Of a DNA stretch of 64,000 bases, positions 13,330-18,742 are shown in pieces. The notes beneath the pieces were generated by a model. The model ran no database searches. It was not told where the DNA came from and saw nothing but the letters and a program-made list of their open reading frames with translations. Source of the stretch: Flavobacterium psychrophilum (GTDB lineage: Bacteria; Bacteroidota; Bacteroidia; Flavobacteriales; Flavobacteriaceae); NCBI GenBank assembly GCA_001708385.1, contig CP012388.1, positions 310,001 to 374,000 on the forward strand, in the 5' to 3' direction. The position numbers and the translations under genes were made by a program. Position 1 is the first letter of the stretch. Each line of letters starts with the position of its first letter.

Positions 13330-14232
13330 ATGTCAAATACAAAAGCATGGCTTCAGGCCGCACGTTTAAGAACACTTCCCTTATCAGTTTCAGGAATACT
13401 AGTAGGTTGTTTCTATGCCTTTTCGCAAGGGCTTGTCAATTATGCAATACTTGGTTTTGCATTACTGACAACATTAGGATTGCAAGTGCTTTCTAATTTT
13501 GCTAATGATTATGGCGACGGTGTAAAAGGTACAGACAATGAAAACAGAATTGGCCCACAACGTGCCATACAAAGCGGTGCTATTACAGTACAGGCAATGA
13601 AGAAAGGAATTGTATTTACATCAGCTCTAACGCTGGTTGCCGCAATCATACTTATCTATGTTGCATTCGGGAAAGATAATTTTGGATATTCGTTATTTTT
13701 CTTTGTTTTAGGTATTGCGGCAATAGCGGCAGCAATCAAATATACTGTAGGGAATTCCGCCTATGGTTACAGAGGATTAGGTGACGTGTTTGTGTTTATC
13801 TTTTTTGGTTTGGTAAGCGTTATAGGATGTTATTTTCTGTTCGCTAAACACGTAGACAATCTTGTAATATTTCCTGCAATAACTGTAGGTCTGCTGAGTG
13901 TTGCAGTACTAAATCTTAACAATATGCGTGATCAGATTTCTGATGCATTATCAGGCAAGAATACCCTTGTGGTAAAAATGGGATCGAAAAAAGCTAAAAT
14001 ATACCATTACAGTATAATTATTGCAGCATTGTCATTAACACTGTTATTTGCGATACTTTCTAACTTTAAACCTGTACAATATCTTTTTCTTATCGCATAT
14101 ATTCCCTTTATACTGCATATTAAAACAGTGGTTAGAAATACAGTTCCACGTGACCTTGATCCGGAACTTAAAAAAGTAGCGTTGGGAACTTTTTTTCTTT
14201 CTGTGTTGCTTTGTATAGTATTGCAGTTTTAA
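13330..14232 (+). CDS. menA: 1,4-dihydroxy-2-naphthoate polyprenyltransferase
   Basis: MenA attaches the polyprenyl tail to dihydroxynaphthoate in the inner membrane. The 300-residue protein is a UbiA-superfamily enzyme with eight to nine predicted helices. The first Asp-rich substrate motif appears as NFANDYGDGVKGTDNENR near residues 56-74, followed by GPQRAIQSGAIT, which is typical of MenA. The second conserved loop is LNLNNMRDQISDALSGKNTL near 195-215. It starts 33 bases after the PH-domain gene, so it may be in the same transcript. Confidence 0.93.
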   Translation: MSNTKAWLQAARLRTLPLSVSGILVGCFYAFSQGLVNYAILGFALLTTLGLQVLSNFANDYGDGVKGTDNENRIGPQRAIQSGAITVQAMKKGIVFTSALTLVAAIILIYVAFGKDNFGYSLFFFVLGIAAIAAAIKYTVGNSAYGYRGLGDVFVFIFFGLVSVIGCYFLFAKHVDNLVIFPAITVGLLSVAVLNLNNMRDQISDALSGKNTLVVKMGSKKAKIYHYSIIIAALSLTLLFAILSNFKPVQYLFLIAYIPFILHIKTVVRNTVPRDLDPELKKVALGTFFLSVLLCIVLQF

Positions 14233-14270
14233 ATCTATAATTTCCAAAAACACACATTAAAATTAAATCT

Positions 14271-14948
14271 ATGAAAATCACATTTTACGGCCACGCGAGC
14301 CTTGGTATAGAAGTTGGAGGCAAACATATTATTGTTGACCCGTATATTACTGCTAACGAAAAAGCGAAACATATTGACATTATGCAGCTTAAAGCTGATT
14401 ATATCTTTATTACACACGCTCATGGCGACCATATCCTCGATGTTGAGGCTATCGCTAATAATACAGGAGCTACAATTGTTTCTAATGCAGAAATTACAGG
14501 CCACTATGAAAAGAAAGGCTTTAATGTACACCCAATGAATCATGGTGGAAGCTGGAACTTTGACTTTGGTAAGGTAAAGTATGTTGTAGCACATCACTCA
14601 AGCTCTTTCCCTGACGGAAGCTATGGAGGAAACCAGGGCGGCTTTGTTATAGAGGGTGAGCATAAGAACATTTATATAGCAGGAGATACAGCGGTAACTT
14701 TCGATATGAAACTTATACCGATGCGAACTAAGTTAGACCTTGCAATTCTTCCGATAGGCAGCAACTTCACTATGGATGTGGAGGATGCTATCATTGCTGC
14801 CGAATTCTTAGAATGCGATAAAATCCTTGGTTATCATTATGATACTTTCGGTTACATTGTAATTGATCACGAAGATGCAGTTAAAAAATTCTATGATAAA
14901 GGTAAAGATCTTATGCTTCTTGAAATCGGAGCGTCTATAGAACTATAA
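14271..14948 (+). CDS. UPF0173 family metal-dependent hydrolase
   Basis: The 225-residue protein has a metallo-beta-lactamase fold of the UPF0173/UlaG-like type. Metal ligands are visible as THAHGDHI near residues 49-56, a His in VVAHHSSSFPDG near 105, GDTAV near 140-144 and GYHYDTFG near 186. No natural substrate is known for UPF0173 proteins. It follows menA by 38 bases. Its stop codon is only two bases from the left inverted repeat of the four-helix-bundle cassette, which separates it from menC. Confidence 0.88.
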   Translation: MKITFYGHASLGIEVGGKHIIVDPYITANEKAKHIDIMQLKADYIFITHAHGDHILDVEAIANNTGATIVSNAEITGHYEKKGFNVHPMNHGGSWNFDFGKVKYVVAHHSSSFPDGSYGGNQGGFVIEGEHKNIYIAGDTAVTFDMKLIPMRTKLDLAILPIGSNFTMDVEDAIIAAEFLECDKILGYHYDTFGYIVIDHEDAVKKFYDKGKDLMLLEIGASIEL

Positions 14949-14950
14949 TA

Positions 14951-14983
14951 TAATTATGAATTACGAATTTTAAATTACGAATT
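14951..14983 (+). repeat. Left inverted repeat of the four-helix-bundle cassette
   Basis: AATTATGAATT (14952-14962) and AAATTACGAATT (14972-14983) are the reverse complements of 15344-15354 and 15330-15341. AATTACGAATT also occurs twice directly within this arm (14959-14969 and 14973-14983). Confidence 0.75.
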
Positions 14984-14984
14984 C

Positions 14985-15338
14985 ATGAAGGCAGACAATG
15001 TCATTCAGATAAAAAGTTATGCGTTTGCTATCAGAGTTGTAAATGTCTATAAATATTTGACATCTGAGAACAATGAGTATGTTTTATCTAAGCAACTTTT
15101 GAGATGTGGTACTTCTATCGGAGCCAATATAGAAGAGGCTATTGGTGGACAAAGTAAAAAAGACTTTATTGCTAAGCTCGCAATTTCCTATAAAGAAGCA
15201 AGGGAGGCACATTATTGGATTAGAATATTAAAAGATACCGATTATTTAAGTCAGGAGCAAAGTGCAAGTTTACTGAATGATGTTGATGAACTTCTTCGAA
15301 TAATTGGAACTATTCAGAAAACTATGCGTAATTCGTAA
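14985..15338 (+). CDS. Four-helix-bundle protein of the 23S rRNA intervening-sequence protein family
   Basis: The 117-residue protein matches the IVP/bAvd-like four-helix-bundle family: a run of amphipathic helices with the family core SKQLLRCGTSIGANIEEA near residues 38-55 and KEAREAHYWIRILKDTDYL near 69-87. In 23S rRNA intervening sequences the same kind of gene sits in the loop of an RNA stem that is cut out. A related protein (Avd) serves retroelements of the diversity-generating type as an accessory factor. Here it lies between a hydrolase gene and menC and is flanked by inverted repeats; its last codons are part of the right repeat. The function of this copy is unknown. No reverse transcriptase is nearby. 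Confidence 0.85.
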   Translation: MKADNVIQIKSYAFAIRVVNVYKYLTSENNEYVLSKQLLRCGTSIGANIEEAIGGQSKKDFIAKLAISYKEAREAHYWIRILKDTDYLSQEQSASLLNDVDELLRIIGTIQKTMRNS

Positions 15339-15355
15339 TTTGAAATTCATAATTT
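15328..15355 (-). repeat. Right inverted repeat of the four-helix-bundle cassette
   Basis: AATTCGTAATTT (15330-15341) and AATTCATAATT (15344-15354) pair with the left arm. Together they give 23 base pairs interrupted by a 9-base versus 2-base internal loop. The repeat ends 6 bases before the ATG of menC. Confidence 0.75.
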
Positions 15356-15361
15356 ATAAAA

Positions 15362-16396
15362 ATGGTTGCTAAATACAAAAAATACGTTCTTGACTTTAAG
15401 CGTGCAAGCGGTACATCCCGCGGGGTGCTTACGCAAAAAGAAACCTGGTTTATTATTCTTGAAAAAGATGGCAAACAAGGGATAGGGGAGTGTGGTATAT
15501 TACGATCATTAAGTATTGATGACAGGCCGGATTATGAAGATCAGTTGAAATGGACCTGCGATAATATTCATTTAGGCGAAGATCAATTATGGGAGGCGTT
15601 AACAGAATTCCCTTCGATTCAGTTTGGAGTAGAAATGGCCTTTCAGTCATTAAAATCAGATTCTCCATATTTGCTTTTTCCTTCGGATTTTACAGATGAT
15701 AAGAAAGAAATTGCCATAAACGGACTGGTTTGGATGGGTGAAAAAACCTATATGAAGCAACAAATTGAAGAAAAGCTGCAACAGGGATTCAACTGCATTA
15801 AATTAAAAATAGGTGCTATCGATTTTCAGAATGAGCTTGATCTTTTGGCGTTTATTCGTGAGCACTTTTCTGCAGAAAAGATAGAAATTCGTGTAGACGC
15901 TAATGGTGCTTTTACTTCTAATAACGCTTTATATAAATTGAATCAATTACATAAATATCAATTACATAGTATTGAACAACCTATAAAGCAGGGGCAGACT
16001 GAAGCCATGGCAGGATTGTGTAAAGTTACTCCTTTCCCAATCGCCTTGGATGAAGAACTGATAGGTGTTTTTGGTTACGAGAACAAGAAACGATTGTTAG
16101 AAGATATACAACCCCAATACATCATTTTGAAGCCAAGCCTTGTTGGCGGTTTCCGAGGATCCAAGGAGTGGATAGAACTGGCAGAAAAACTTAATATTGG
16201 ATGGTGGATAACATCTGCACTGGAAAGTAACATCGGACTAAATGCCATTGCGCAATGGACATACCTCCAAAATAATCCTATGCCACAGGGGTTGGGAACC
16301 GGTGCATTATACACCAATAATTTTGATTCTCCATTAGAAGTTAAAAACGGAAAACTATTTTATAACCCAGATATTAACTGGAATGTAAATCTTTAA
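15362..16396 (+). CDS. menC: o-Succinylbenzoate synthase
   Basis: MenC dehydrates SHCHC to o-succinylbenzoate in menaquinone synthesis. The 344-residue enolase-superfamily protein shows the N-terminal capping domain (GIGECGILRSLS) and a barrel domain. The catalytic Lys lies in CIKLKIGAIDF near residue 140, metal ligands in IRVDANGAF (Asp near 178), SIEQPI (Glu near 203) and ALDEELIG (Asp/Glu near 228), and the second Lys in YIILKPSLVGGF near 255. The ATG follows directly after the inverted repeat of the inserted cassette, so any promoter or processing in the cassette could affect its expression. Confidence 0.93.
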   Translation: MVAKYKKYVLDFKRASGTSRGVLTQKETWFIILEKDGKQGIGECGILRSLSIDDRPDYEDQLKWTCDNIHLGEDQLWEALTEFPSIQFGVEMAFQSLKSDSPYLLFPSDFTDDKKEIAINGLVWMGEKTYMKQQIEEKLQQGFNCIKLKIGAIDFQNELDLLAFIREHFSAEKIEIRVDANGAFTSNNALYKLNQLHKYQLHSIEQPIKQGQTEAMAGLCKVTPFPIALDEELIGVFGYENKKRLLEDIQPQYIILKPSLVGGFRGSKEWIELAEKLNIGWWITSALESNIGLNAIAQWTYLQNNPMPQGLGTGALYTNNFDSPLEVKNGKLFYNPDINWNVNL

Positions 16397-16402
16397 TAAA
16401 GA

Positions 16403-16430
16403 AAAGGCGGTAACATTTATTACCGCCTTT
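16403..16430. terminator. Bidirectional intrinsic terminator
   Basis: The 11-bp stem AAAGGCGGTAA / TTACCGCCTTT with a 6-base loop lies between the converging menC and acyl-CoA dehydrogenase genes. T-rich sequence follows on both strands. Confidence 0.85.
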
Positions 16431-16435
16431 AAATT

Positions 16436-18742
16436 TTATGCTTCTGCAGCTTTATTGGTAACAATAGCACCTAGGCAACTTTCCGGTATATTAAATGCGT
16501 TTACTAAAGGAACAGCATCCTGTCTTATTTCCCAACACAACTGGCTAACAAGCTTACGAACAGCTTTGGTTTTTACACCTTCCATATAACCTTGCTCTAA
16601 ATACCATGCTTTGTGTTCTTCAATTTTATTAAGGGCAAATAAATTGTATAGCTTTTCTAATACTTCCTTAACTCCTGCATCGGTAACTAATTCCAGATTT
16701 GCCTGAAACTGTTCAAGGAAAACACGATCAAGATAGCTATCCGAAATTTGTATCATGTGAGGATGCATGACATTGGCTGCATCAAATGCATCAAGACCAT
16801 CATCAACAAGTTTTTTAAACCTTCTTGCCGCAGAACTTACTATTTCTTTCTCTCTGTATAAAAATGCCTGTAGATGAAAGTTTTTATCTTTTAAATGTTG
16901 CTCGTCTGTGTTTCGTGTAGCAAAAGGATTTTTTTCTGTAATTGAGGTCTTTGCCTGATCCAATACGTAATTAAATATCGTTGAAACATTCATTTCTCCA
17001 AACTGTTTACGGAATTCACCTAAACGGTTTTTAGCAGTAAGCTGCATCAATACAGTATTGTCACCTTCAAATGTGGTATATATCTCGGTGTCATTTTTAA
17101 GATCGTCTATACGATTCTCGCTAAGATATCCTTTACCGCCACAGGCTTCACGGCATTCTTGAAGAGTATCGCGGGTATTCCAGGTAGAATATGATTTCAT
17201 TCCTGCAGCTAACGCTTCGATCTCCTGCATTTCTTCTTCCTTACGATTGACAAAACGCTTGGTTAAATATTGTAATCCAAAGTGAATAGCATAGGCGTTA
17301 GCCAAATAAGGCATAAGCCTGCGTTGGTGCATTCTGTAATTCAGAATCGGAACTTCAGTTCCTCCTTCTGGCCCAAACTGCCTACGTTTGTCGCCATACT
17401 TAATAGCAATAGTCAATCCTGTTTTAGCAGCTGCCAAAGCAGAACGCGGAATACCAATACGCCCGCCAACTAGTGTGCCCAGCATGGTGAAAAAGCGCCT
17501 GTTATCACTTGGTATTGGGCTTTCGAATTCTCCATTTTCATTAACCTGCGCAAAACGGTCAAGCATATTTTCATAAGGAATAACAACGTTTTTAAACGTA
17601 AGTATTCCGTTATCGACACCATTTAAACCCATTTTATGGCCACAGTCTTCAATAGTAACTCCTTCAAGCACATTTTTTTCAGTATCACGAATAGGAACTA
17701 CAAAAGCATTTACGCCATAATCCTTATCGTTAATTACAAGCTTGGCAAAAACAGTAACCATTTCTCCATGGTTAGCCGTATTACCAATATACTCTTTACG
17801 ATCATATTTTTCAGGAGTATTTATGGTGAAAGTCCTGTCGTTGTGATTATACGTAGCTGTTGTGCGTACACCCTTCACGTTAGACCCATGATGTGTTTCT
17901 GTCATAGCGAAACCTCCGGGTAATTTTAACGTACCGATATCCTTTAGATATTTCTTATAATGTTTTTCTGTACCTAGTGAAAGTATACTCATTCCCCACA
18001 GTCCAAACTGTACGCCGAACTTAATCACAAGACTTAAGTCATGGTAGCTAAGCGTTTCCATTACAGAAAAGTAACCTTCAATGTCATCTTTACCGCCGTG
18101 TTCTTTGGGGTAGGCATACGCCCCCAAATCATGTTTTGATAGCGACTTGCTCCAGTCTAAGACTTTTTCCCTGTACTCCATAATATTCTCCGGAATATCT
18201 AAAGCAAATTCAGGGGAAGATATAAGTTCTTTGACCTTGTTTATGGTTGTTGCCTGGCTACCATCAAGAAAATCAGTTAGCAGCTTTACATCAAAGCTTT
18301 CAACTGTTTTATACTTATCGGTTATCGTGTCACGTTTTTCATTGAACCCGGAGATAACCTCGCGGCTCATAACACCAAGCTCAGATTCCATTTTAGCAAA
18401 AGCTTCCCCGATATTTCTTATATCTTCATCGTTTAACGACTGTCTCTCTGAGTTAGCTATAAGAATGCCCAGTTCGGTAAGGTTTGACGGCTTTTGAATA
18501 GTATCCAGCGCTTTATCTATCTTTTCTTTCCAGTGAAAAAGTTCAGAGCGGCTAGGAGGGGAGGTATAATCTATTTTCGATTTAAGGAATTCTTTTTCAG
18601 CCTTAGTAATCCAGTCTTGTTTGTTTATAAAATCATTAAGCGTTGTAAATTCATTCTTGGTTAAAAAATCATCCTGCCACGCTAAGTAAAAGACAGGAAT
18701 AAGTATGCTGAGTTTGGGATCGTTATTAAAAGTAATGTCCAT
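16436..18742 (-). CDS. Large acyl-CoA dehydrogenase / oxidase family protein
   Basis: The 768-residue flavoprotein is longer than a standard 380-residue acyl-CoA dehydrogenase and resembles acyl-CoA oxidase-type members. An N-terminal alpha-helical region of about 190 residues precedes the core. FAD-contact motif MTETHHGSNVKG lies near residue 279, GHKMGLNGVDNG near 370, and the catalytic Glu is in YTTFEGDNTVLMQL near 557. A C-terminal domain of about 150 residues follows. It probably oxidises acyl-CoA thioesters; chain length and whether oxygen or ETF is the acceptor cannot be told. It lies just downstream of nudK on the same strand. Confidence 0.85.
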   Translation of the reverse strand: MDITFNNDPKLSILIPVFYLAWQDDFLTKNEFTTLNDFINKQDWITKAEKEFLKSKIDYTSPPSRSELFHWKEKIDKALDTIQKPSNLTELGILIANSERQSLNDEDIRNIGEAFAKMESELGVMSREVISGFNEKRDTITDKYKTVESFDVKLLTDFLDGSQATTINKVKELISSPEFALDIPENIMEYREKVLDWSKSLSKHDLGAYAYPKEHGGKDDIEGYFSVMETLSYHDLSLVIKFGVQFGLWGMSILSLGTEKHYKKYLKDIGTLKLPGGFAMTETHHGSNVKGVRTTATYNHNDRTFTINTPEKYDRKEYIGNTANHGEMVTVFAKLVINDKDYGVNAFVVPIRDTEKNVLEGVTIEDCGHKMGLNGVDNGILTFKNVVIPYENMLDRFAQVNENGEFESPIPSDNRRFFTMLGTLVGGRIGIPRSALAAAKTGLTIAIKYGDKRRQFGPEGGTEVPILNYRMHQRRLMPYLANAYAIHFGLQYLTKRFVNRKEEEMQEIEALAAGMKSYSTWNTRDTLQECREACGGKGYLSENRIDDLKNDTEIYTTFEGDNTVLMQLTAKNRLGEFRKQFGEMNVSTIFNYVLDQAKTSITEKNPFATRNTDEQHLKDKNFHLQAFLYREKEIVSSAARRFKKLVDDGLDAFDAANVMHPHMIQISDSYLDRVFLEQFQANLELVTDAGVKEVLEKLYNLFALNKIEEHKAWYLEQGYMEGVKTKAVRKLVSQLCWEIRQDAVPLVNAFNIPESCLGAIVTNKAAEA

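Follow-up and report, generated by a model that had tools for sequence, protein, structure and literature searches.

Four-helix-bundle (IVP) genes of Flavobacterium and other bacteria lie between inverted heptad or octad arrays whose unit follows the protein clade: a probable protein-repeat system

One of the questions raised by the window (the whole stretch of 64,000 nucleotides that was analysed) is why a short gene for a four helix bundle protein, of a family also encoded within the intervening sequences (IVS) of 23S rRNA genes, should sit between a hydrolase gene and a menC-like gene, enclosed by flanks that can pair with each other. A sequence-only reading of this locus had viewed it as an analogue of the 23S IVS, and possibly as a mobile unit and a site of mRNA processing. 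The features on which the argument turns are the following.

14271..14948, + strand: upstream neighbour, metal-dependent hydrolase gene (NCBIfam PRK00685 model, UPF0173 type)
14952..14986, + strand: left arm, five AATTACG-type heptads (AATTATG AATTACG AATTTTA AATTACG AATTCAT)
14985..15338, + strand: IVP gene, four helix bundle protein of 117 aa (PF05635, E=5.6e-29; TIGR02436)
15330..15359, - strand: right arm, inverted heptad array (reverse complement TTATAAATTATGAATTTCAAATTACGAATT), 27/30 complementary to 14954-14983
15362..16396, + strand: downstream neighbour, menC-like (o-succinylbenzoate synthase), top NCBIfam score 118 against a cut-off of 130.55

The fit of this cassette between its neighbours is tight, as the left arm starts 3 nt past the hydrolase stop codon and shares two bases with the IVP start codon, and the right arm covers the 3' end of the IVP gene and stops 2 nt short of the menC start codon. 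The four-helix-bundle gene thus lies where it had been placed, between a UPF0173 hydrolase gene and menC (a name that is likely rather than certain, because the best NCBIfam model scores below its cut-off), and the right arm does overlap the final codons of the frame, as had been remarked. Two pairings of 11 and 12 bp had been reported between the flanks, and both are exact: AATTATGAATT, at 14952-14962 with 15344-15354, and AAATTACGAATT, at 14972-14983 with 15330-15341. They are different registers of one repeat array, and the uneven internal loop that had been drawn between them is superfluous, since an ungapped register (14954-14983 with 15330-15359) pairs at 27 of 30 positions. The transcript of 14949-15361 has a fold z of -4.2, as expected of such an inverted repeat, and a search of 14200-16500 against Rfam gave no match at the gathering threshold. 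The IVP protein has a solved relative (2RLD, E=1.9e-32); the gene has no Pfam match other than PF05635, and no catalytic domain.

The same genome (one contig of 4.14 Mb) holds five IVP genes, each with ORFs of 126-473 aa on either side, and all five are armed, the top inverted repeat of each having arms of 25-31 nt at 80-93% complementarity. The units are all different, however: AATTACG-like in the window, GGTTGNN, GTTTAAR, TCAGTNN (L003) and the octad ATTTGANN. A search of this genome with the 32-nt left arm, allowing three mismatches or fewer, returned the window copy only; a looser unit pattern gave six matches against one for its reversed control, among them two further AATTACG-array sites without an IVP gene.

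Within the wider sample PF05635 was found in 59 of 61 Flavobacterium genomes and in 157 of 198 from Bacteroidota, and in none of 14 control genomes, with 0-14 IVP copies per genome in the Flavobacterium survey. Ninety of the 150 matches listed, best scores first, were added to the five loci of the own genome to give a survey set of 95; because the loci are the best-scoring matches, degenerate cassettes are under-represented among them. After omission of one incomplete locus (L157), the median flank-to-flank score of the 94 Flavobacterium IVP loci was 22.75, compared with 9.5-10 at four shifted positions, and scores above 29.5 were reached by 15 of the 94 and by none of 375 shifted controls. 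A control that mismatched left and right flanks from different IVP loci was heavy-tailed (95% point 19.5, 99% point 29.5) because unit types recur among loci, and the shifted positions are therefore the cleaner control; even so, 62 of the 94 lay above the 95% point of the mismatched pairs and 15 above the 99% point. The periodicity is confined to particular spacings: at least 21 of 28 positions matched at lag 7 in 32 of 190 IVP flanks (0-2 of 187-190 control flanks) and at lag 8 in 28 of 190 (none of 187-190), and no periodicity was seen at lag 6 or 9 in the 190 IVP flanks. Arrays most often have five units (84 of 246 arms), with four to six in 194 of the 246, and control flanks mostly have no array or three units. 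The 2RLD entry holds five chains, and a Xanthomonas member of the IVP family is described as a homopentamer in the available part of PMC4990558; that five units would correspond to five subunits is no more than a hint.

Can the unit be predicted from the genomic site, or from the protein? For this comparison 29 loci found by a search with the window protein were added, making 124, and pairs were taken to differ in context if no neighbouring ORF matched within 1.5 kb. Among such pairs the mean cosine of repeat similarity was 0.51 at 70% or more amino acid identity (188 pairs), 0.42 at 60-70% (187 pairs), 0.15 at 50-60% and 0.07-0.12 lower down, and IVP identity correlated with repeat similarity with a Mantel r of 0.505, compared with a maximum of 0.061 in 300 permutations. 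Unit and period are distinct for each clade on the IVP tree, and the same period occurs in both arms at 58 of the 59 loci (among the 124) that have two clearly periodic arms. The window clade, defined at 60% identity or more, comprises 27 loci, 25 of which carry an AATT-type unit in one or both arms, some of them weakly periodic; the exceptions by this measure are L181 and L202, and L202 shows no arms above its controls. Only five of the 27 occupy the hydrolase-menC junction, the other 22 being without a hydrolase or menC match in their stretch, whereas the TAGT clade is found mostly at one type of site (flanked by frames of some 191 and 194 aa). As judged from sequence comparison, the unit follows the IVP protein clade and not the genomic site.

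Arrays also occur without the gene. A 25-nt AATTACG array, allowing one mismatch, was present in 26 of 150 genomes, with up to 91 matches in one of them and none for the reversed control; reversal of the TAGT pattern yields a control that hits the very same arrays and is uninformative, and some TAGT matches are cassette arms (nine such are listed in G011, for example). An IVP gene was seen in the stretch at one of 50 AATTACG-array loci (L277, at a distance of about 650 nt), the 50 being drawn as 30 plus 20 from two partly overlapping sets, and at one of 20 TAGT-array loci. With overlapping matches counted and kinship uncorrected, AATTACG arrays were found in 10 of 17 genomes with an AATTACG-type IVP and in 16 of 133 others (p=4e-5), and TAGT arrays in 25 of 42 genomes with a TAGT-type IVP and in 31 of 108 others (p=7e-4). 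The reciprocal associations across these two clades had odds ratios of 0.48 and 0.41 and were not significant, so that solo arrays are associated with the cognate IVP clade only, for the two clades tested and again with kinship uncorrected. In all of the ten AATTACG genomes there were arrays outside the close IVP gene's own arms. Apart from the arms of their own cassettes, 82 arrays could be placed, nine at stretch ends and three inside open frames; of the other 70, several of which share one stretch and are not independent, 26 had the outer end alone within 15 nt of an ORF edge, one the inner end alone, seven both and 36 neither. Three loci (L256, L266 and L295) have inverted pairs of AATTACG arrays with a short spacer and no gene, possibly minimal cassettes comparable to the paired GGGAATC repeats of Xanthomonas. 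The 91 matches are those of the Flavobacterium genome G120 (L285-L292), where some arrays reach 14 units and the sole listed close IVP gene is at C4:72720.

The general rule, by which IVP genes have inverted heptad or octad arrays of a clade-specific kind and solo arrays occur at other places, is a stronger finding than the single cassette in the window. It also bears on the earlier proposal of a mobile unit, for which the hydrolase-menC junction provides a comparative view. A menC match lies within reach in 73 of 80 named Flavobacterium loci, and an IVP gene detectable with the window protein is present in one of those 73 (L010, F. salilacus). Eight relatives (L007, L008, L009, L011, L013, L015, L019 and L024) have the hydrolase and menC genes 110 bp or less apart without an IVP gene, and in three of these (L015, L019 and L024) the hydrolase stop and menC start overlap as TAATG; in most other relatives' loci the two genes are split by further genes. 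Close relatives thus have an empty site, and neither conservation of the cassette at this position in all relatives nor a lack of further repeat copies, two of the three outcomes named beforehand as counting against the earlier reading, was observed. L008 and L013 have AATTNNN units at the junction without an IVP gene, perhaps as remnants. The junction seems to attract small elements: that of F. rivuli (L013:4680-4790) has an inverted repeat of GCCACGAATTACGC, and at L014:4680-4970 there are AATTAATTCCCTAACGGGAAA-type inverted repeats. Against the empty sites L015, L019 and L024, which are diverged, no target-site duplication was evident by eye, and neither an excised form nor such a duplication has been demonstrated for the cassettes.

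Comparison of cassettes with their surroundings points to exchange as well as to polymorphic occupancy. Several related cassettes in different contexts (L146/L155, L154/L155) align across gene and arms with similarity ending near the arms, the cassettes of L154 and L155 being about 80% identical with flanks at background; many other different-context pairs align inside the IVP gene only. The converse is seen in L088 and L130, where identity in the majority of flank windows is 95-100% (lower in a few on the downstream side, with 78% in one) and the cassettes are 61-79% identical with units CTAAGATN and CAAAGNNN, and in L105 and L165, with flanks at 83.5% and IVP genes at 57.9% identity. Among the 403 pairs examined there are others in which the IVP gene is more conserved than the flanks, down to -13.4 points. 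The L088 site, beside a gene encoding MINLFNTHIDTLSIHRVGNK..., is occupied by an IVP cassette in all of the 30 closest genomes (L325-L354), among which no empty site was found; the alleles differ, and by eye three or more unit types can be told apart within similar flanks. As all are occupied by different alleles, exchange rather than gain and loss is indicated there, and the occupancy looks like vertical descent with allele exchange. Empty sites, occurrence at other sites, cassette exchange and IVP-less arrays therefore lend the mobile-unit proposal comparative support, with movement itself a prediction from these sequence patterns.

The placement of cassettes follows a further regularity. 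Among 106 with a score of at least 16 (18 of the 124 were dropped), and with neighbours taken as long open frames rather than curated genes, 90 have genes on both sides that run in the direction of the IVP gene; the remaining 16 comprise 11 with a reversed downstream gene, three antisense to both neighbours and two without an upstream call, and the (-,+) arrangement of neighbours occurs in none of the 106. In 88 of 104 cassettes neither outer arm edge is more than 40 nt from the adjacent frame, and in 55 of the 104 a limit of 15 nt holds for both. On plasmids this co-directional rule is weaker, because by annotation nine of 14 loci are co-directional, four are antisense to both neighbours and one is divergent (upstream gene reversed). 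These 14, taken from 26 IVP-bearing plasmid records and spanning five phyla, are ten cyanobacterial loci and one each from Bernardetia (Bacteroidota), Chlorohelix (Chloroflexota), Treponema saccharophilum (Spirochaetota) and Monoglobus (Bacillota), and in every one the arm score exceeds both of its own shifted controls. The same holds for 25 of 28 new loci in a survey across phyla (22 of the 25 outside the genus; three of the 28 are from the same genus), L208, L224 and L230 being the loci without arms above controls. Plasmid IVP genes were encountered among defence genes (L236, L237, L242, L246 and L247): twice in the order cas2-IVP-cas1 with the IVP gene antisense to both, and elsewhere beside csx2 and cas1, hsdS-type and hsdR genes, or DISARM drmD and an MmeI-type enzyme.

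The explanation that we consider probable is that of a selfish protein-repeat system, similar in its logic to RAYT/REP, in which an IVP gene between inverted arrays encodes a ring that reads its own repeat. It is based on what is observed, namely the architecture, units specific to each clade, sites that are polymorphic, exchange of cassettes, placement in operons and solo arrays; we infer the binding, the correspondence of one unit to one subunit, active movement and selfishness over host benefit. The cassette would consist of an IVP gene between inverted arrays, each with about four to six copies of a 7- or 8-nt unit, placed between co-directional genes and presumably transcribed from their operon, and each IVP clade would keep its own unit across different sites. 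The IVP ring may then bind tandem units of its own type, most simply with one of them at each subunit, and this binding could let the cassette and free arrays spread or persist via host enzymes, as REP elements do with RAYT. In its widest form the proposal is tentative, and we rate it as somewhat doubtful: IVP proteins would be sequence-specific heptad or octad readers with one unit per pentamer subunit, each clade, though devoid of a transposase, driving its own repeat in trans, such that the heptamers of cyanobacteria, Xanthomonas, Beggiatoaceae and Bacteroidota would all be their footprints and the ribosomal IVS would be members that settled in rRNA.

The processing model, in which the arms form a stem in a polycistronic mRNA that is cut by RNase III, as for an IVS, with the hydrolase/menC message being split, can draw on the protein family shared with the 23S IVS ORFs, on the fold z of the window transcript and on the 90 sense-oriented cassettes between co-directional genes. 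If pairing in RNA were maintained, the differences between arms might be biased towards those that a G-U pair tolerates, but a strand-aware wobble test on 113 loci gave no excess (173 compatible versus 204 incompatible, p=0.12). Arms were also swapped between loci: by unit class, own arms score 16.6-23.6, within-class swaps 15.0-22.1 and swaps between classes 10.3, and because within-class swaps keep most of the score, most of the complementarity comes from the shared unit. Own arms nevertheless do slightly better than same-class swaps (mean +1.8, p=9e-4; 72 loci in six classes), as in 11 of 12 cases in the TAGT class and nine of ten in the TTAGA class, and selection on pairing, or else concerted evolution, could therefore play some part. 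Selection on an RNA stem is thus rejected as the general explanation, the wobble test being negative and the shared unit explaining most of the pairing, and we favour unit recognition over stem maintenance with a small residual pairing effect. Since IVP-less arrays are common and often single, and Rfam offered no match around the window locus, we regard RNase III processing as quite improbable here.

A benefit to the host is conceivable if the IVP protein binds arrays near stop and start codons in mRNA and so tunes the translation or stability of both neighbours, the solo arrays being more targets. The excess of solo arrays with the outer end alone near an ORF edge (26, against one with the inner end alone) and the full occupancy of the L088 site agree with such a regulator, as does the suggestion, in the available text of MacGregor 2015 (PMC4679880), that a post-transcriptional regulator may bind to TAACTGA repeats close to start codons. 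Yet the wide range of copy number (0-14 per genome), neighbours as diverse as a men gene and, on plasmids, cas, restriction and other genes, and units that differ from copy to copy within one genome argue against it, and we view a regulatory function as unlikely. Polymerase slippage might also generate heptad arrays in intergenic DNA, where IVP genes would simply be prone to reside; in what is accessible of Rehm 2015 (PMC4692102) slippage is among the ideas put forward for heptamers, and array lengths do vary. Against slippage alone stands the link of unit to protein clade over unrelated sites; the arrays moreover face each other in inverted orientation across the gene and seldom occur at shifted controls, and across genomes the association is with the cognate clade only (kinship uncorrected), so that passive hitchhiking appears very improbable.

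If the IVP protein does read its own repeat, the link would give the protein family a likely ligand and the repeats a likely agent, where both IVP genes and heptamer repeats are common and apparently unexplained so far. It would amount to a protein-repeat system without a transposase-like gene, located between genes and spread over several phyla, and a built-in code for testing lies in the large number of IVP clades and the separate unit of each.

To our knowledge, neither the IVP protein nor a tandem heptad or octad repeat type defines any known mobile system. RAYT/REP, whose REP units are palindromic, is the nearest: a protein gene (RAYT or TnpA-REP) is flanked by its own class of repeat, protein type and repeat type are coupled, the location is intergenic, and repeats are scattered without the gene, singly or as inverted pairs (REPIN). 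The IVP cassettes likewise have a gene flanked by a repeat that is dispersed in genomes with that protein type. They differ in having no HUH/Y1 transposase domain, in repeats that are tandem 7- or 8-mers and not palindromic REPs, and in the sense orientation of most of them between co-directional genes. With two defining features absent, the IVP cassette could be a new kind of element; on a stricter view it could be a variant of RAYT/REP. From a classical insertion sequence the window cassette differs in lacking a transposase catalytic domain (PF05635 is its only match). Avd of the diversity-generating retroelements is a related four-helix-bundle ring, said to bind nucleic acid, but there is no reverse transcriptase among the four genes examined at the window locus. 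TRAP provides an analogy only for the proposed IVP binding: this ring of 11 subunits reads tandem (G/U)AG repeats with variable spacers, one per subunit, and it is an unrelated protein with more subunits and shorter units. The STRR are heptamer repeats of cyanobacteria. The comparison with the 23S rRNA IVS stands for the layout, as the available text of PMC4990558 also has an S23p/IVP-family ORF between complementary arms, about 400 nt overall and sporadically present; it fails in that the window cassette lies between hydrolase and menC-like genes instead of in an rRNA helix and has clade-specific tandem heptads as arms, with no sign of wobble-tuned pairing; excision by RNase III, a feature of the IVS, would be at most a possibility for the cassette.

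Published heptamers, STRR-like in being 7-nt tandem units in mostly intergenic positions, match the IVP arrays in these respects in the available descriptions. Rehm 2015 (PMC4692102), in its accessible sections, reports GGGAATC in Xanthomonas and GGGGA(C/T)T in Nostoc, with 70 convergent inverted pairs in one Xanthomonas genome and 75 in another, and few inverted pairs in Nostoc; the left arm of a Planktothrix IVP cassette contains AATCCCC repeats, the reverse complement of GGGGATT and thus of the Nostoc type. The TAACTGA repeats of several groups, for which the available text of MacGregor 2015 (PMC4679880) finds no evident transfer mechanism, read TCAGTTA in reverse complement, which fits the TCAGTNN pattern of L003 although TCAGTTA itself is not among the L003 units. 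In what is available of these papers the repeats are treated alone, without an IVP protein: 'S23', '23S' and 'helix bundle' are absent from the main text of Rehm 2015, and '23S' and 'four helix' from the available text of MacGregor 2015. Among openly licensed papers, in their accessible parts, none was found that links an IVP/S23 protein to heptamer repeats; in those parts PMC8700078 names a 'four helix bundle protein' among the unique genes of an Arthrospira strain, and PMC5524665 places an F. columnare IVP gene between guanylate kinase and nadD genes, under phage elements, both without a link to repeats.

IVP relatives at about 40% identity also occur on two phage contigs from human faecal samples (MT835815 and MT835590). 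IVP genes with an in-frame stop recur (L110, L128 and several other survey matches), and for this reason decay of cassettes seems to be common.
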